Assembly (NCBI GenBank): GCA_029641185.1
Contig: JAPWGK010000005.1
Coordinates: 496,001-560,000, forward strand
Direction of reading: 5' to 3'
From: Pseudofabraea citricarpa
Lineage: Eukaryota; Ascomycota; Leotiomycetes; Helotiales; Dermateaceae
Length of the DNA: 64,000 nt
Shown here: piece by piece, positions 1,718 to 52,185 of the stretch
Layout of the letters: each line of letters begins with the position of its first letter
Numbering within the stretch: the stretch's first letter is position 1
The notes under the pieces: model-generated
Database searches by the model: none
Told to the model about the DNA's origin: nothing
The model's input: only the letters and a program-made list of their open reading frames with translations
Made by a program: the position numbers and the translations under genes

Positions 1718-4700
1718 TTATCGCGAATAAAACCATACCAGTTTGTCCTAGTCCTTATCGACTAGGTCTTCTTCCTTCCTTTTGTCTTTAGGATTAATCT
1801 GCCGACGAAGTTTTATTACTCTAGCGAGTTGCGCTTTCCCCTTAATCTTATTCCCTAAGTCTAACAACAGCTTTCCCTTTTTCTAAGATGCTCGTGCTGC
1901 TTGGGGCTTGAACTATAGGATGTCGCTATATATTTTGATATATTGATTAAGAAGAATTCTGCGTATTGGATGTTACTATCTTGGATCGGTAAATGATAAA
2001 GGATGGGTAACTTACCTTCCCTTATCGTATCGACTAACACGTAACAGTTGAACTGCCAGTGAGTAGCAATTGTCGGCAGTCTGCTAATGATTATCACCTA
2101 GAGTGATCTTTAAGCTTTCGAGGGCCTCTAGGAAGAACTCGAGACCTTTATCGAGTTTCCCTTGTGAAGTTAGAATATGTCCTATAACATAGAGAATCCG
2201 TCCGGTCCTATTCACGAATTAGTTCAACTCGCCTGAAGATGTGCCTTGGTATCACAAGAGTGACAATGCTTACTCAAACGCTGACTTGTCCGCCCGTCCA
2301 AAGGCCTCATCCCGAGCTGCAAGGACGGGAGAAACAATCTCATAGCCTTCGTCCGCTCGTCCCATAACAGCATAGAGCAGACCCAGATTAATGGTTGGCC
2401 ATGTTGCGATAAGTGGGTCATCGGGAGCGTTGCTTGTGAGACCTTCAATTGCGAGCTTCCATGAACCAATAGCTTCTTTCTCCAAAGGCACTCTCATATA
2501 CGACATTCCAAGCTCATTATACACCATCGGCAACATTAGTGCATCTTCTGGGTCGTCATATTTCTGCACCCTATCAACCATTATAGCCAGCCACTTCTTC
2601 CCGTGCTCTAGAGCGCCCTGGCCATTTGTATCTATGCCAGCGATAGCTTGGTATTGATGACTGTCTGCTAGTAATTTCGTGAATTTGTTTTCATCGTATC
2701 CGGTATCCATATGATCCAAAATAGCTTGGGAAAGGATTGCGAACTTGTCGCACTCAACAGGGATTCCTCTTTCTGCAGTGAACCTAGAAGTAGAATGAAT
2801 AAGTATGCGAAATTTGGAACGAGGCTGGGGAACTTGTTCGTAGGAGTATGAACATACCATGCTGCTTCGTTAAACAGTGCCGCACTCTGCATGCTCGGTT
2901 TCATCTCACCAGATAACAATTGCTTCTCGAAGAGTGACTTGATTCGTGCAATGTGCGGAAAATACTTTTCGCAGATTTTCCGACGAGTGACCAGATTACG
3001 ATTGTCTAGCTGAACAAAAGGCCACACAGCAGATAATAGAACCACGGTGGCGTTGAACACTGCGATGAGTTCTGCCGGAGTCATCTTCTGTCGGACGACA
3101 TCTTGAACAAGTCGATGGATGCGGATCTCTTCCGAGTCGATATTTCTGGTGATTAGAGAGGACTTGATGAGCTCGCCCCTTGCATCAAAATACTCGCTCT
3201 TTTTCTTAGGATAATCATTTAATTCGACATTTTGGGCGCCCTCGAATAGGATTGCTTCAGGAATGCCATCGGGATCGAGGACAGAGAGCACCCTCAACAG
3301 TGCAACTGCTGGAGCAGGCAGCTCCTCTATTGCCCAGACCGAAGAAACCCTTTGGCTGTAGGTCAAACCGGGAATGACTGTTTCCTGTAATCGTTTCGCG
3401 TCTACCTCGTAGTATTCCAGGAAGTCTTTGAGAGAGAGATGACGACGGCGAATGATTGCTCCCATCTGGACTATTGCAAACGGAAGGCCACCTAAAGTCT
3501 GCACTATCTGCTCGCAAAGAGCGAGGCTGTTCGATTCTTTCTCCCTACCCGACAATTTCAGTAAAAGCTTGCTTGCCTCATCCTTCTCTAGTGGAGGAAG
3601 ATCGACTCCAATAGGTGCATAGACACCATCCTTGGCAATTGGATTTCGACTTGTTGTCAATACTGCTCCGATACCTGTCACAGGCCAATAATCATCTAGA
3701 ATTTCTGGATCGTCCGCATTATCGAAAACTAGCAGCTAGGATACTTCCTTCGCTGGTGACATGAATTCATCTGTCGTTTGAACAAGAGGGTTCGCCATCC
3801 ACCCCTTGACTATTTCTCGAGTTGCGACAGGATCATTGTTACTGTCTGAATCCTCTAGCCCAAGTTCTCGCGCAATTTCAGAAAATCCAGCCGCAATTTT
3901 CTGTGTCGTATCAGCGTTCAGCCAGAAAATTGCGTCAAAATTGGGTTTCCGAGAGAATGTGTACTCAATCGCAATCTCGGTCTTGCCAATGCCTCCTAAA
4001 CCACAGAGGACAAAACTATGCAATGTTTTATGCGCAGTTTCATCAACTCTAGGTAATAAAACATCGTCAATTTGATTCAAAACTTCTTTCTGTCCAAAGA
4101 ACCCTATGTTCCGCTGGTGTGTGAGCATGTATACAGGCAGGTTTGTAGCTGTGCGCCGGGTGTTAAACTCAGATATTGTGCTGCAGCTTCGATCGGAAAG
4201 CGTTCGAATCGTTCCATCATTTGTATTCATGTACGTGTTCTGTAAAGAGGAAGAGGGCGTGAGAATCACTACACGGTCACATCAGTTATTAGCATGGGGA
4301 AATTCAGTCCAATAAGAGAAGGCATATCGGGCATAAAGAATAAAAAATACCTGGCTTTTTGGCATCCTCAATAGACCCAAAACTACTCTTTGTCCTCAAT
4401 GTAGACACATCGCCGACTTGCATATTCGCAAAAATTGCTGCTACTGCTGGAACCGCATCTTCTACAGCGGTTCTAAAGAACTTGACAACACGATGATAGA
4501 GAGCACTTTCAGACACCACGGAGCAGAGATCATGATGAGCAGATTCGGCCTGGAAAAGCTCCTCATTGTTTGCTCTTGTAGTGGCGTGCGATATATCAAC
4601 CAACTATTAGATAAGATTAATATATTTTGCTCGACGTGTAAAGAATGAGACCCAATGACTAACAAGTTTGTGGTTGCTTCCACTCTTGAATGTTTTCAGC

Positions 4701-20549: not shown

Positions 20550-22436
20550 ATGTGCCGACCCCTATCCGTGCGATTGCGCCGCTACATTCATAGTGTAGAA
20601 CCAAGGCTGAAGAAGCAATACTGCCGTTCATTCTCGAAAGTTCGCACGTTATTATACGATCACTGTCACGTCGACATGGGCTCTCGCCAGATAGGTAGAT
20701 TAGCATACCCGTCTGAGCGCGATTTAATATATCACTTACCCCTATCAGATTGGAATTCTAAAGACGAATTCTTCAAATTCACGCGTGGCCGTTTTATTGT
20801 GGATGAGACAGAGAATTTTCGACAGCGAGAGGTCAGATTCGACTTGAACAGGCTTGCGAGTGTCGCAGCAGAGTCGGTCGGTGCCACTCAATGCGTTTCT
20901 ATCGAGAAGTATCCCGATGGCATGTTCAACAAAGCATACCTCATGACCATGGATAATGGTCGTGAAGTGGTAGCCAAGGTGCCTAACCCGAACGCCGGTA
21001 TTCCGCACTTTACTACGGCCAGTGAAGTTGCCACGATGAACTTTGTACGTTTAGTCTAAACTTCTGAACGTAGAGTCTCGCTAATGCAGTAATTTACAAG
21101 GCCAGAGAAGTCCTTGGTACGCCGGCCCCTCGTGTCTACTCATGGAACTCAAAGGCGAAATCACACCCTGTAGGTGCTGAGTTTATCATCATGGAGAAGA
21201 TCAGCGGTGTTCCGTTGTCTCAAGTATGGGACACGATGAAGCTCACCCAGAAGCTCCAGTTGCTTGTTGACTTGACAAGTCTCCAGAAGCAATGGCTGAG
21301 CGTTTCATTCTCTCATTATGGCAGTTTGTACTACACGGGAGACGTGCAGCCTCCGGTAAGCAACCATTACGTCAAGGATGGCAAGGTCGTCAAAGACTTG
21401 AAGTTTAGTATGGGCCCGGCTACAGGCCGGGATTGGATTGATGCAGGACGGTCAACCTTGGACACCGAGAGGGGGCCATGTACGTTGGATTTGATACCAT
21501 TTTTGTGAAGCCGCTGACAAGTTCGTAGGGGCTTCTCTAACACAATATCTGCAAGCAGTCGGGACGCGAGAAACCAATGCAATCCATTCCTTGAAATTCC
21601 CAAAACAGATTGCCCTATTCTGTGGCCCAAAACTTTACCAACCTAACACGGAAAAGAAGCTCACTGCTTTGGCATGGTACCAGCAGATCATCGACGCACT
21701 TATCCTAAAGAACACCAAGATAAACAACCCTTATCTTTGGCATAATGATTTGCATCATGATAACATCTTCGTAAACCCAGATATACCTGAGAAGATCACG
21801 GGTATTATTGACTGGCAGTCTTGCCACATTTCGCCGCTCTTTAATCACAATCCCGATCCAGCCTTCCTCGACTGGGATGGACTTGAACCTGAGACGCTCG
21901 ATCTGGCACCAATACCGAAGCTTTCTGGGCTTTCTCCAGAAGAAAGGTCCGCTGCCGTACGCGAGTATACAGTCCAAAATGTGTTTATCGGGTGGCGTAA
22001 ACTCATGCATGCCAAAAATCCCGACTTGTATCAAGTGGTGGAATTCCGAAAGTCGGCAGCATACGGCCTAATATTTCTTGCCCACCGTATGTTCGAATAC
22101 GGCGAGGCGCACTTCCAATCGCTTCTAGTAGATCTAAAGGATACGTGGGCAGACCTACCTGCCGTCACCAGCCATACTCCATTCCCCTTCAGCTTTTCGG
22201 ATGCAGATATTGAGCGTATCAAATTGGATAGCGATGGTGCAGTAGCAGGAACCGAGCTTGTTGCGGCGGTGAAGGATAGAATAGGTGATTTGTGGCCGGA
22301 TAAAGGCTTTATTGAGCACGAGCGATACATTGATTGTAAAGCTGCCCTCCAGGAAGTCAGAGATCAGATATTAGAGCAACTGGCCGAGAGTGACGAGGAA
22401 AAAGAAGAGTACAAGCGGTATTGGCCGTTTGAATGA
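20550..22436 (+). CDS. AIM9-like mitochondrial APH-fold kinase
   Basis: The product belongs to the aminoglycoside-phosphotransferase fold and most resembles Altered Inheritance of Mitochondria protein 9. Exons are 20550-21044, 21101-21479 and 21529-22436 (introns 56 and 49 nt, phases consistent), giving 593 aa. The N terminus MCRPLSVRLRRYIHS is basic and Arg/Ser-rich, as in a mitochondrial presequence. The nucleotide-binding Lys lies in EVVAKVPNP. The catalytic loop is LWHNDLHHDNIFV (Asp and Asn present) and the metal-binding Asp is in GIIDWQS. The length suits the family. The substrate is unknown. The intron between MNF and AREVLG ends in AAG. The gene looks intact, unlike its neighbours on either side. 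Confidence 0.88.
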
Positions 22437-35290: not shown

Positions 35291-36483
35291 AAAATGCTTG
35301 TTCACGCTATTCTTTCACTAAGAGAAAGAAGTCCCATATGAATTGGTTGGAACATCTGGATTTAAATGCAAACACTTTGATCTAGTACCTAACACTATTA
35401 GTTGACTGCGTTTCTGAATCTAATCGAGGTTTTACTGCCAATGCCTTTTAAGTCGTGGTTGTATAACATCTGGGGGTTTTTTTCTCTCCACAACTGTTCA
35501 TGTCCCTGAACATTTATGTGGCATTAGACTACCTGGAACAACTTTGGAATCTTGTGGCTGAATGTCATAGATATTTGGCAAATTATCTCACTCGCGACTT
35601 TTTCTTCTTTTATTTTCTCGTATTTTATTTTCTCCTCTATAGGAGTACATCGCCATTGCTTTCTCAGCGGAGTCATAAGGCCGAATATTTGATATGTAGA
35701 TTCAATCAAATAATAAAACTATAAAGAGCGATATCGATCTTTTATGTTGAATGCCGTACATAACATTAGCTATTTTGTGCACGTCACCCTTTAAGCGAGC
35801 AAAGGGAGGAAACTGGGAGTCTGGTTTTGAAAAATGGAGATATACCAGGGCCCGTAGAAAAATTCACAGGATCGTATGTCCTAGACTTTTCGGCAACGCG
35901 AGTGCCTTTTGATTCTCCGGCTCGGAAGCAGGGGTATGGATAACTTCATGTTTCATGTAATCCTCTCTGTACTCCAGGAATTATTGAGAGTAATCGTCGC
36001 TAAACTCGCCATGGGGACGTTTAGGAGCCATCCTCTGCTTTCATGCAAGAAAGATCTGCGAGATGAAAATCGAGACACCAAGGCCTTACTCCAGGAAGCA
36101 TGAATATTTAAGAAGGCAGGATTTGGTGCTCAAACGTGGTGTCTTGTCCCAATCAGAATAAGCTTTTCCCGAAAAACTCTATCTATCACTGCCGAGCACG
36201 TTAAGCGGCAAATCACTTCTCTTATCCCAGCAACCCGACAAATAAACTCTGCTTGACTTCAAAAGCCGTTAGGCCGCCCTTCCGCCAGGCGGGAAACGAA
36301 ATGAGAGCTGCGCAAAAAGGATGAATCCTTACGAGTCGAAGTCCGAAACCCGGCAGGGCCGAACAAAGGAGAGAAGATCGAGGATAAATACCTAGCAATA
36401 GAACTTAGGGTAACATCACCACCGCAAAGGCAACCACTTTCTTTAACATCCTACTTTCTTTGAAAAGGTTCACTCTCTTTAAA
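35291..36483. other. Intergenic and promoter of the secreted hydrolase
   Basis: No gene is seen. The stretch contains several T-rich tracts and, close to the hydrolase start, a pyrimidine-rich leader. Confidence 0.4.
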
Positions 36484-38184
36484 ATGCCTTCTGTTCGTAA
36501 CATCCTCGTGGCCGCAGTCAATTTCTCGGTTCTTGTCAACGGCTTGACATGGACATCATGTGGCACGGGTGTAGAGTGCGCAACGCTCGAAGTTGCTCTC
36601 GAGTATGGCGACACCACATCAACAGAAAAGGCGAGCATCGCACTCGCTCGGTATAATGCTACTGTGGCAGCAAGCGAGCGACTTGGATCTCTCTTGATCA
36701 ATCCTGGTGGACCTGGTGCTTCTGGTGTTGGATTTGTGACTGCTGGTGCCGGAGCTGCTGTCTCTACATTAACTGGTGGCCTTTATGATGTTATTGGATG
36801 GGATCCACGTGGAACGGGAGCTTCGAGCCCTGTGCTACAATGCTTCCCAAATGCTAGTGCCGAGTACGACTTCAACAACGCCTTTCCATCGGCTCCAAAT
36901 CTCTGGCTTGGACAGTTCTCAAATGCTAGTGCCGATGCTGCTGTCAGCTCTGCTATTGGCACCTTCGACACTTCTGTTGCTGCTCTCGCCGATGCTTGTG
37001 TCGCCCAAAAGTCTTCTGCTCTTTTCACCTCAACCGCTGCATATGTTGTACGAGATATGGCAGCAATTGTGGATGAGTTGGATGGAACCTCCGCCAAGCT
37101 CAATTACTGGGGTTTTTCGTATGGAACCATCTTTCTTGCCGAGTTCATTCAGACATTCCCTGCTCGTGTAGGAAGAGTTATGGCCGACGGTGTTTTTGAC
37201 GCCAAGGCAAATGCCGAGACATATGTTACCCAACTTCCAAACGATCAGGTCAGCGTTCGCGCTTCACTCAATGACTTCGCCGCCTTCTGTACTACTGCTG
37301 GAAGCGAGGGATGCTCTTTTGCCGCCGCTCCTACTGGAGTCACAGATTCAGTGGCTACTAGACTTGACAACATAATGGAAGATCTATTCAACAACCCGAT
37401 CGTCGCTTCTGGTCTCACTATTAGCTTGGACATTCTCAGCCCAACACTTGCTTCTCTTCTTAGAGTCCCAACCACCTGGAAGTCGCTTGCGTCAGTTCTG
37501 TCTGGTCTCGAGACCCGTGATGCCACTGCTTTAATCTCGCTACTTGGATCATTAGCAGCTGCTGAGCCTACTGATGGCTCAGCACCAGGTGTTGGCACGC
37601 TCGCTGTTTACCCTCTAGGATGTGTTGATAATGCTGCATCCGATAAAATTACTCTGGATGAGGTTGTCACTCTCACAAAGGAGATCTCGATCGCCGAGGA
37701 CACTCCATTACTCAGTGCTGGGCTGATCCCAATCACATTCTGCCGCAACTTCCCTGCCACTCGTCCTCTCGTCCCCAATGTGGGTGCCAGTTTGATGGCA
37801 GAGACAGACACCTTACTTGCAGCCGCAAAGACACCAATATTAATTGTTCAACCCGAGAATGATCCTACCACACCTCTCAAGTCTGCACAAGCACTCCGAG
37901 ACCTGCTTCCAAATTCATCGACGCTTGCAATCCGTGGAGGAAGTGGACATACCACTATCTCACACGCATCGCTTGGGATGGCCAAGGTTATCTCGGAATT
38001 TTTCATCAGCGGGACAATGCCAACCGATGGAGCTCGTTTCGCGGTGGATCAAAATCTTTTCCCTACAGCTGCGGCGAGTGGTTTAGTCACACCCGCAGCC
38101 TTCAATGGAACTTACTCTACAGAAGAGCAAAGTTTCTTGACAGCAACATATAACATTGGAATTGCCTTCTTGTCAATTGGATAA
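36484..38184 (+). CDS. Secreted alpha/beta hydrolase, TAP-like (S33) peptidase, 566 aa
   Basis: I start at MPSVRNILVAAVNFS because this gives a typical signal peptide. An in-frame ATG lies 24 nt upstream (36460). The oxyanion region reads LLINPGGPGASG, the second core motif GWDPRGTG, and the nucleophile elbow WGFSYGT (Ser about residue 212). The acid lies in QPENDPTTP and the His in GGSGHTT. The order matches tripeptidyl-aminopeptidase-like hydrolases, which release short peptides from protein N termini. Several N-x-S/T sites fit a secreted glycoprotein. It is a single uninterrupted frame with clean codon use and looks functional. Confidence 0.9.
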   Translation: MPSVRNILVAAVNFSVLVNGLTWTSCGTGVECATLEVALEYGDTTSTEKASIALARYNATVAASERLGSLLINPGGPGASGVGFVTAGAGAAVSTLTGGLYDVIGWDPRGTGASSPVLQCFPNASAEYDFNNAFPSAPNLWLGQFSNASADAAVSSAIGTFDTSVAALADACVAQKSSALFTSTAAYVVRDMAAIVDELDGTSAKLNYWGFSYGTIFLAEFIQTFPARVGRVMADGVFDAKANAETYVTQLPNDQVSVRASLNDFAAFCTTAGSEGCSFAAAPTGVTDSVATRLDNIMEDLFNNPIVASGLTISLDILSPTLASLLRVPTTWKSLASVLSGLETRDATALISLLGSLAAAEPTDGSAPGVGTLAVYPLGCVDNAASDKITLDEVVTLTKEISIAEDTPLLSAGLIPITFCRNFPATRPLVPNVGASLMAETDTLLAAAKTPILIVQPENDPTTPLKSAQALRDLLPNSSTLAIRGGSGHTTISHASLGMAKVISEFFISGTMPTDGARFAVDQNLFPTAAASGLVTPAAFNGTYSTEEQSFLTATYNIGIAFLSIG

Positions 38185-41472: not shown

Positions 41473-42558
41473 ATGTTCCACGCAATCTATCAGCTGAGCG
41501 GTAACATAACTTGTCCAGAAAATTCAGCACAATACCAAGTAAAGCATCCAAGTGCAGATGCTACCTGGGACCCATCCATGCAACCCGACGAGGCAGACGA
41601 GGAGCCTGGCTACACCGAGCTACAGCTGGCATCTCGATCAGGAGACTTGCAGCGTGTGATTACTATCTTGTCCGAGCATCAAAGTAAGGAAGAAAAGGCA
41701 ACTGTCGTCAACACACCACCTGTGGGGTTTCATGGTCGGACAGCGCTGCAGGCCGCCTGCAAAGGTGGGCACGAAGACGTCGTCAAGGTTCTGTTGGCTG
41801 CTGGAGCTGATATCCACGCAGCTGGAGGCAACAACACTTACAAAAACGCATTTGAAGAAGCCTGCAGCGCTGGCAATATAAACGCCTTTCATATGCTCCT
41901 TGATGCGGGTGCCATCGTCAACCCTATCAGTGTGACCAGATATGGAGGGCGGACGCCGGTGCAGGCTGCTGCTGAAGGCGGGCACCAATACATTGTGAAT
42001 CGTCTACTGGACAATGGAGCCAACATTAATGCACCCGCTTCGATAAGTTCTGGTGTGACGGCTTTGCAAGGTGCAGCTATGGGCCAGCACTTGAAAATGG
42101 TTGAACTACTGCTTGCTAAAGGCGCTGACATCAATGCCCCAGCAGGGAAATACAAGGGTTACACAGCACTACAAGGGGCGTGCCTCGGCGGCAATATGGA
42201 AATTGTGCATCTACTAATCCAGAACGCCGCTGATATCAATGCGCCCGGAAATATTCTCAACGGGGGCACTGCATTGCATGCCGCCGCTGCGGGTGGTCAC
42301 ATTGACGTTGTACAGAAATTGTTGGATGCTGGTGCTAATCCTAACAGTATGGCCGGGCGTTCAGGACAGACTCCATTGCAAAGTGCATCTCTAATCGGGC
42401 GAAAAGATATCGTGGAATTACTCAGAAAAGCTGGCGCCACTGGGCCAACAACCGGTGGCAAGATTTTGTTTCACGACTCCTATAGAGTCAAGATTGATCA
42501 ATTCAAGACTACAGTAGGCAGACTTGGATGGAATTCCAATCCAACTAAGGAAGTATAG
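41473..42558 (+). CDS. Ankyrin-repeat protein, 361 aa
   Basis: About seven ankyrin units are visible, with repeats of the form GxTALQxAxxGGHxxVVxxLLxxGADINAP (for example GRTALQAACKGGHEDVVKVL and GVTALQGAAMGQHLKMVELL). They run from about residue 50 to 325. There is no other domain, membrane helix or signal peptide. Met36 (MQPDEADEE) is an alternative start at 41578. Ankyrin arrays bind partner proteins, and no partner can be inferred. The consensus is well kept, so the gene appears functional. Confidence 0.88.
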   Translation: MFHAIYQLSGNITCPENSAQYQVKHPSADATWDPSMQPDEADEEPGYTELQLASRSGDLQRVITILSEHQSKEEKATVVNTPPVGFHGRTALQAACKGGHEDVVKVLLAAGADIHAAGGNNTYKNAFEEACSAGNINAFHMLLDAGAIVNPISVTRYGGRTPVQAAAEGGHQYIVNRLLDNGANINAPASISSGVTALQGAAMGQHLKMVELLLAKGADINAPAGKYKGYTALQGACLGGNMEIVHLLIQNAADINAPGNILNGGTALHAAAAGGHIDVVQKLLDAGANPNSMAGRSGQTPLQSASLIGRKDIVELLRKAGATGPTTGGKILFHDSYRVKIDQFKTTVGRLGWNSNPTKEV

Positions 42559-51844: not shown

Positions 51845-51880
51845 GCGTTTGTGGTTTAGTGGTAAAATCCATCGTTGCCA

Positions 51881-51907
51881 GTATTCCTTCATTTAGGATG
51901 CACAGTG
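51881..51907 (+). other. Canonical 37/38 tRNA intron, copy 1
   Basis: This 27-nt insertion follows the base 3' of the anticodon, where tRNA-splicing endonuclease normally cuts. It differs in length and sequence from the 19-nt intron of copy 2. Confidence 0.85.
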
Positions 51908-51922
51908 TCGATGGGCCCCGGG

Positions 51923-51975
51923 GTATGTTCACTTCCCTTATCGTTGCAAGTACACACAATACTAATTTATCAAAG
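51923..51975 (+). other. Spliceosomal-type intron in the T arm, copy 1
   Basis: The 53-nt insertion starts GTATGT, carries the branch-like heptamer TACTAAT at 51960-51966 and ends CAAAG. Its removal exactly restores the T stem and TTCGATT loop. GT...AG boundaries and a branch heptamer 9 nt from the end are spliceosomal marks. Several mRNA introns inferred in this window also end in AAG. Confidence 0.8.
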
Positions 51976-52049
51976 TTCGATTCCCGGCGAACGCAGTTCA
52001 ACCCTACTAGTTAGCGTTTGTGGTTTAGTGGTAAAATCCATCGTTGCCA

Positions 52050-52068
52050 ATATTATTATATTTCAACA
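52050..52068 (+). other. Canonical 37/38 tRNA intron, copy 2
   Basis: A 19-nt AT-rich insertion at the standard tRNA intron position. Confidence 0.85.
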
Positions 52069-52083
52069 TCGATGGGCCCCGGG

Positions 52084-52136
52084 GTATGTCAAGTCTCCAC
52101 ATTACTAAAGTCGCCTAAATACTAACTCAACCAAAG
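52084..52136 (+). other. Spliceosomal-type intron in the T arm, copy 2
   Basis: This insertion is again 53 nt, from GTATGT to CAAAG, with a perfect TACTAAC branch heptamer at 52120-52126. Its interior differs from that of copy 1, while the 5' end, branch region and 3' end are kept. Confidence 0.82.
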
Positions 52137-52178
52137 TTCGATTCCCGGCGAACGCAAACACTCAAGAGTGAGAACTTC

Positions 52179-52185
52179 TTTTTTT
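52179..52185 (+). terminator. RNA polymerase III terminator
   Basis: A run of seven T residues lies 23 nt after the second tRNA. No comparable run lies between the two tRNA copies. Confidence 0.75.

Follow-up and report, generated by a model that had tools for sequence, protein, structure and literature searches.

Candidate spliceosomal introns at position 53/54 of nuclear tRNA-Gly(GCC) genes in Pseudofabraea citricarpa

Seven tRNA-Gly(GCC) genes were found in the genome of P. citricarpa, and four of them carry, in addition to an intron at 37/38, an insert of 50–53 nt at position 53/54. Judged from their sequence anatomy, it is very probable (roughly 85%) that these inserts are U2-type spliceosomal introns residing in living tRNA genes transcribed by RNA polymerase III (Pol III), and maturation of the tRNA from these four genes probably requires two distinct splicing systems. 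The usual site of eukaryotic nuclear tRNA introns is 37/38, where they are cut by the tRNA-splicing endonuclease.

Architecture of the tRNA-Gly(GCC) genes

Two of the insert-bearing genes follow each other head to tail within the window, i.e., the whole 64-kb stretch of DNA that was analysed; their features are compiled in Table 1, together with the introns of the U6 gene of the same genome. If both the 37/38 intron and the insert are taken out, the two genes give one identical 71-nt tRNA-Gly(GCC), with the acceptor stem GCGTTTG/CGAACGC, the T stem CCGGG/CCCGG, the T loop TTCGATT, and A as the discriminator base. The earlier note on this DNA had placed a 53-nt insertion exactly at 53/54 in both genes, and this assignment is correct to the base, the insertion lying between G53 and T54; the GTATGT start, the TACTAAT or TACTAAC element, and the AAAG end which it had read in the two inserts were all confirmed at their positions.

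Table 1. Coordinates of the two tRNA-Gly(GCC) genes of the window and of the U6 introns on contig C2
Feature	Position	Strand	Remarks
tRNA-Gly(GCC) gene 1, two introns	51845..51995	+	exons same as in all seven genes found; Rfam tRNA model 25.7 bits, gathering score 29
Gene 1, 37/38 intron, 27 nt	51881..51907	+	tRNA-endonuclease type, by position
Gene 1, 53/54 intron, 53 nt, putatively spliceosomal type	51923..51975	+	5' splice site GTATGT 51923-51928; branch site TACTAAT 51960-51966; 3' splice site AAG 51973-51975
Gene 1, B box AGTTCGATTCC	51974..51984	+	read from the sequence; consensus presumed
Spacer between the two genes, 18 nt, without TTTT	51996..52013	+	sequence
tRNA-Gly(GCC) gene 2, two introns	52014..52156	+	Rfam tRNA model 26.5 bits
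Gene 2, 37/38 intron, 19 nt	52050..52068	+	by position
Gene 2, 53/54 intron, 53 nt	52084..52136	+	5' splice site GTATGT 52084-52089; branch site TACTAAC 52120-52126; 3' splice site AAG 52134-52136
Gene 2, B box AGTTCGATTCC	52135..52145	+	read from the sequence; consensus presumed
T7 run, first possible Pol III terminator 3' of both genes	52179..52185	+	sequence
U6 intron 1, 55 nt	C2:955502-955556		GTAAGT, TACTAAC, TAG
U6 intron 2, 50 nt	C2:955583-955632		GTAAGC, TACTAAT, CAG
U6 intron 3, 52 nt	C2:955658-955709		GTAAGT, TACTAAT, CAG

The two-intron build would give a reason why such genes escape tRNA finders: neither ARAGORN in one setting nor Rfam at the gathering score found any tRNA gene in the 64-kb window. 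With the Rfam threshold lifted, both genes appeared with scores below the cut-off (Table 1) and with all stems aligned around the inserts. When anticodon-loop introns were allowed, ARAGORN called Gly(gcc) for the three insert-free genes of the genome (introns of 24, 25, and 24 nt), called gene 1 with a wrong intron of 60 nt, and missed gene 2 as well as the two insert-bearing genes outside the window (L002 and L003). Along these lines, the Rfam tRNA census of the genome yielded at least 63 matches, mitochondrial ones included, and none of the seven tRNA-Gly(GCC) genes was among the matches listed; the whole-genome searches covered 44 Mb in 43 contigs, and their counts are to be taken as lower bounds. 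Another tRNA arrangement of this genome is an inverted duplicate near a contig end, with three tRNA-Arg(TCG) genes and one tRNA-Arg(ACG) gene, the two copies of which stand about 110 kb apart (C12:2624-3940 and C12:113956-115272). The window, C39:496001-560000, also holds genes for an ankyrin-repeat protein (41473-42558) and a DUF7779 protein (2668-3681), and a fragment of an APH-type phosphotransferase gene (21591-22436). The protein encoded at 36460-38184 shows 88% identity to a Phlyctema vagabunda protein, with Botrytis, Sclerotinia, and Monilinia next in line, which points to a Leotiomycete host, probably from the order Helotiales.

A genome search with the 36-nt 5' exon, in which up to three mismatches were allowed, returned seven matches, all of them perfect, and over the 71 nt of the three exons all seven tRNA-Gly(GCC) genes have the same sequence, an identity to which concerted evolution may have contributed in part. 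The 37/38 intron, of 19–27 nt, is likewise present in each of the seven, inserted one base 3' of the anticodon, and its removal together with that of the insert leaves a cloverleaf with a GCC anticodon and intact exons, as is characteristic of a functional nuclear tRNA-Gly(GCC) gene. The 53/54 insert occurs in the two window genes (53 nt each) and in one gene each on contigs C23 (51 nt) and C15 (50 nt), that is, at three separate places of the genome; it is absent from the genes on C43, C1, and C7. As the insert-free genes have the same exons, they show in DNA the very product that is expected from removal of the insert.

The three insert-free genes have 3' flanks in common, with local alignment scores of 49, 65, and 68 as compared to 11.5–13.5 for the best of 100 shuffles. 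No pair of flanks of the four insert-bearing genes stood clearly above the shuffles, the highest excess being 13.0 versus 12.5 for the 3' flanks of L002 and L003. The 37/38 introns of L002, which has the insert, and of L006, which is free of it, are 85% alike. The simplest reading of these sequences would be that the insert was lost once, in an ancestor of the three insert-free genes, with retention of the 37/38 intron; possibly, it was instead gained in another line, with exchange at a later time. If the loss passed through RNA, the template would have been a precursor that had been relieved of its spliceosomal intron and still contained the 37/38 intron. With regard to an origin from a mobile element (introner), the whole two-gene stretch, when compared with the genome, matched tRNA-Gly(GCC) genes alone among the seven matches listed. 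The same insert gave zero matches in viral contigs and zero in prokaryote contigs, as expected for a fungal gene.

Splice signals of the inserts and splicing components of the host

The four inserts start with GTANGT (GTATGT, GTATGT, GTACGT, and GTAAGT) and contain the element YACTAAY, the branch A of which is located 38–42 nt from the start and 10–11 nt from the end; in each case the terminal AG is the first AG past the branch site. Mononucleotide shuffling of the individual inserts produced a looser set of these signals in 0, 0, 1, and 0 of 300,000 sequences, and the strict pattern GTANGT-N25-40-YACTAAY-N6-12-AG occurs twice on both strands of the 64 kb, exactly at the two window inserts. 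Taken as a whole, the inserts are 60–66% alike, and in five of the six pairs this exceeds the highest value among 200 shuffles. From the 5' splice site to the branch site, the intervening sequence is at shuffle level in all six pairs, the observed identity being reached by a fraction of 0.05–0.28 of 500 shuffles. With the signals alike and the stretch between them at shuffle level, it follows that the signals were kept while the rest drifted; the inserts look old, with nothing but their splice signals visibly held and the exons around them invariant. Introns of host mRNA genes were considered as a yardstick; the open-frame heuristic applied to the window returned nine clusters of doubtful quality and was dropped.

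Two patterns were used to look for the same intron elsewhere in the genome. The pattern GTANGT-N-CTAAY-N-AGTTCRA had 37 matches, compared to 34 for the reversed control, and four of the 37 are tRNA genes, all of them tRNA-Gly(GCC). Pairing of the T stem was assessed for 33 of the 37, the other four being the window's own two inserts and two overlapping matches on C41; all five pairs can form in two tRNA-Gly genes only, followed by three matches with four of five pairs, the surroundings of which are not tRNA-like by eye. The pattern GGTRNGT-N-YTRAY-N-AGTTCRANNC had 20 matches versus 7 in the control, and again four are tRNA-Gly(GCC). Eight of its other 16 matches are already part of the first set (one to four of five pairs), and the remaining eight, viewed on their 5' side only, are not tRNA-like by eye. 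Within these scans, which covered canonical signals at 53/54 in this genome, the insert was not found in other tRNA families.

Components of both splicing pathways can be traced in the genome. Five U1-like matches have scores of 45.6–52 bits, below the cut-off of 69.5, in a search in which 3 of 14 prokaryote controls also matched at the same lax E-value, none of them above the cut-off; five U2 matches lie above their cut-off, and so do two matches to tRNA_int_endo (PF01974). With U1-like, U2, and tRNA endonuclease matches present, both splicing systems are represented in the host. Of the U1-like and the U2 loci, one each was read: the former (L106) shows ATACTTACCT close to the 5' end, and the latter (L107) shows GTGTAGTATC. 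The element ACTTACCT of host U1 can pair, over positions -2 to +6, with 7, 7, 7, and 8 of the 8 bases of the four tRNA 5' splice sites, and with 8, 6, and 7 of the 8 bases of the three U6 5' splice sites.

The U6 gene is of particular relevance in this context. A search of the genome with the U6 RNA family gave one match, which extends over 152 bases and scores 33.2 bits where the cut-off is 44, and the only U6 gene found (L103-L105, C2:955300-955860) consists of four exons and three introns. A TATA-like element precedes the gene and a T7 run follows it, no intron contains TTTT, and the branch A is situated 11–12 nt from the end and 38–43 nt from the start of the introns, which the 53/54 introns of the tRNA genes resemble in both length and geometry. 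No intron-free copy of U6 was found in the genome, where a 20-nt stretch of the second exon has one exact copy. A U6-core-like stretch at C2:96193-96212 has two mismatches, one of them in the ACAGAGA box, and is perhaps a U6 pseudogene or a chance occurrence. U6 is transcribed by Pol III (PMC10484740); as a Pol III product with three introns, it leads one to expect that the host splices at least one Pol III transcript by means of the spliceosome. The match to SRP RNA comprises 268 bases on a model of 293 positions and hence gives no sign of an intron.

Proposed transcription and maturation, and alternative explanations

TTTT is absent from the interior of all seven tRNA-Gly(GCC) genes, and a run of four or more T begins at most 39 nt 3' of six of them; for gene 1 there is none until the T7 run behind gene 2. 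A terminator after the gene and none within is what is expected for transcription by Pol III. Because no T4 intervenes between gene 1 and the T7 past gene 2, the pair in the window probably forms one dicistronic Pol III transcript that ends at this T7. The insert splits the B box of the internal promoter between its two leading G and TTCGA. Owing to the terminal AG of the insert, the DNA sequence continues to read AGTTCGATTCC (AG-TTCGATTCC), such that this AG stands in for G52-G53 and the B box remains near the consensus, which we take to be GGTTCGANNCC; the promoter would appear to tolerate the split. In minimum free energy folds, read by eye, the T stem-loop was seen in all four precursors from which the 53/54 insert had been taken out and in none of the four with the insert; the full cloverleaf is absent from such folds even for the mature tRNA.

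The following course of events is proposed. Pol III would transcribe the gene, the window pair probably as the dicistronic transcript just described; U1 would pair with GUANGU and U2 with YACUAAY, and the insert would be excised in lariat form by the spliceosome in the nucleus, whereby the 7-nt T loop would be restored. End processing by RNase P and RNase Z and transport by the export factor depend on a T arm that is already folded; hence the T-loop intron would be removed first, the T arm would fold, and these enzymes and the export factor would then act. Excision of the 37/38 intron would be a separate step that involves the tRNA splicing endonuclease and a ligase, and the product would presumably be used in translation. 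The earlier note had suggested that a Pol III transcript may need the spliceosome as well as the endonuclease, a suggestion which draws support from the diverged inserts with kept signals, the insert-free paralogues, the absence of T4, the near-consensus B box, and the U6 introns.

Several points may be held against this reading. Three of the four inserts end in AAG and one in CAG (AAG, AAG, CAG, AAG), as compared to TAG, CAG, and CAG in the three host U6 introns, and AAG is a minority 3' splice site in fungi; the insert was found in one tRNA family only, within the scans for canonical 53/54 signals; and, with regard to the need for the insert-bearing genes, all tRNA-Gly(GCC) could come from the three insert-free genes. 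An alternative view is that the four genes are dead copies whose T arm and B box were broken by the insert, the tRNA being made by the three insert-free genes only. The existence of these three genes agrees with it, as does a 2014 review according to which a eukaryotic tRNA gene with a short insertion in its D or T arm is supposedly a pseudogene (PMC4090602). In a dead gene, however, exon bases would be expected to decay along with the splice signals, whereas the exons of four genes at three places are identical to the insert-free copies in 71 of 71 positions, and the inserts are at shuffle level except for their splice signals; furthermore, the insert has retained a near-consensus B box at its 3' end, and T4 runs have not appeared. 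On balance, death of the four genes is considered unlikely.

It is more doubtful still that splicing of the insert is confined to Pol II read-through transcripts, or is a rare event, with degradation of the Pol III transcript and a neutral arrangement as a whole. Splicing of a Pol III transcript is to be expected anyway in this host, since its U6 is made by Pol III, contains three introns, and was found in no intron-free copy, and the retention of signals in the face of saturated divergence argues for their use. Removal by the endonuclease, with spliceosome-like letters having arisen by chance, would have a precedent in the bulge-helix-bulge introns known at 53/54 in archaea (PMC4090602), and the host has the two tRNA_int_endo matches; the strict form of this motif (3-nt bulge, 4-bp helix, 3-nt bulge) does not occur, though, as at most two of the four central pairs can form per insert in either of two registers. 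This test is a weak one, since the 37/38 introns also score 0–2 of 4, and it speaks against the strict archaeal form only. The stronger point is that the signal set turned up in at most one of 300,000 shuffles per insert and that the signals are the conserved part of the inserts, so that chance resemblance combined with endonuclease cutting is hardly credible.

Relation to known introns and significance

Introns of U6 across fungi were reportedly treated by Canzler in 2016. In fission yeast, U6 is a Pol III transcript with a short GT-AG intron that is removed by the spliceosome, and as U6 is itself a part of the spliceosome, the idea of reverse splicing has been put forward for its introns (PMC10484740). 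The tRNA-Gly inserts are comparable to fungal U6 introns, of which there are three in this genome, in that both are short GT-AG introns in a Pol III transcript. In contrast to U6, the host RNA is here a tRNA which already has an endonuclease-type intron, and the insert is situated inside the internal Pol III promoter (B box). Fungal U3 snoRNA, although not a tRNA, is a further small structured RNA with normal spliceosomal introns, and paralogues with and without introns coexist in one genome, including in Leotiomycetes; frequent interruption by an intron is described as known for no small structured RNA other than U3 and U6 (PMC5832005).

Archaeal tRNA introns share with the inserts the insertion point 53/54 and the occurrence of several introns per tRNA gene; they are, however, of the bulge-helix-bulge type and cut by the endonuclease (PMC4090602), whereas the inserts have full spliceosomal signals and no strict motif of this kind. 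Among eukaryotes, Cyanidioschyzon merolae and nucleomorphs have tRNA introns outside 37/38, some of them in the T arm; unlike the inserts described here, those of the Guillardia nucleomorph measure 3–24 nt, and in C. merolae a bulge-helix-bulge is thought to guide cutting (PMC4090602, PMC3978253). In the available text of both papers, no spliceosomal signals are reported for these introns. Eukaryotic tRNA genes have been described as limited to one intron (PMC8450103), and a nuclear tRNA with a spliceosomal intron is not described in the accessible portions of PMC5832005, PMC8450103, PMC6461891, PMC3978253, PMC4090602, or PMC10484740. The earlier note was not aware of a description of such a case, which agrees with the parts of the open-licence literature consulted.

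Considered together, the observations make it likely that the maturation of a nuclear tRNA from its single Pol III transcript obligatorily requires both the tRNA splicing endonuclease and the spliceosome, with a spliceosomal intron which lies in the internal promoter and rebuilds the B box by its final AG. Part of the tRNA-Gly(GCC) supply would then be tied to the capacity of the spliceosome, and the three insert-free copies, with their common 3' flank and retained 37/38 intron, would derive from a precursor that had lost the spliceosomal intron only. A tRNA gene with both kinds of intron would show that the action of the spliceosome extends beyond U6 to another Pol III transcript, one that is short and highly structured, and would allow the order of the two splicing pathways to be followed in a natural reporter.
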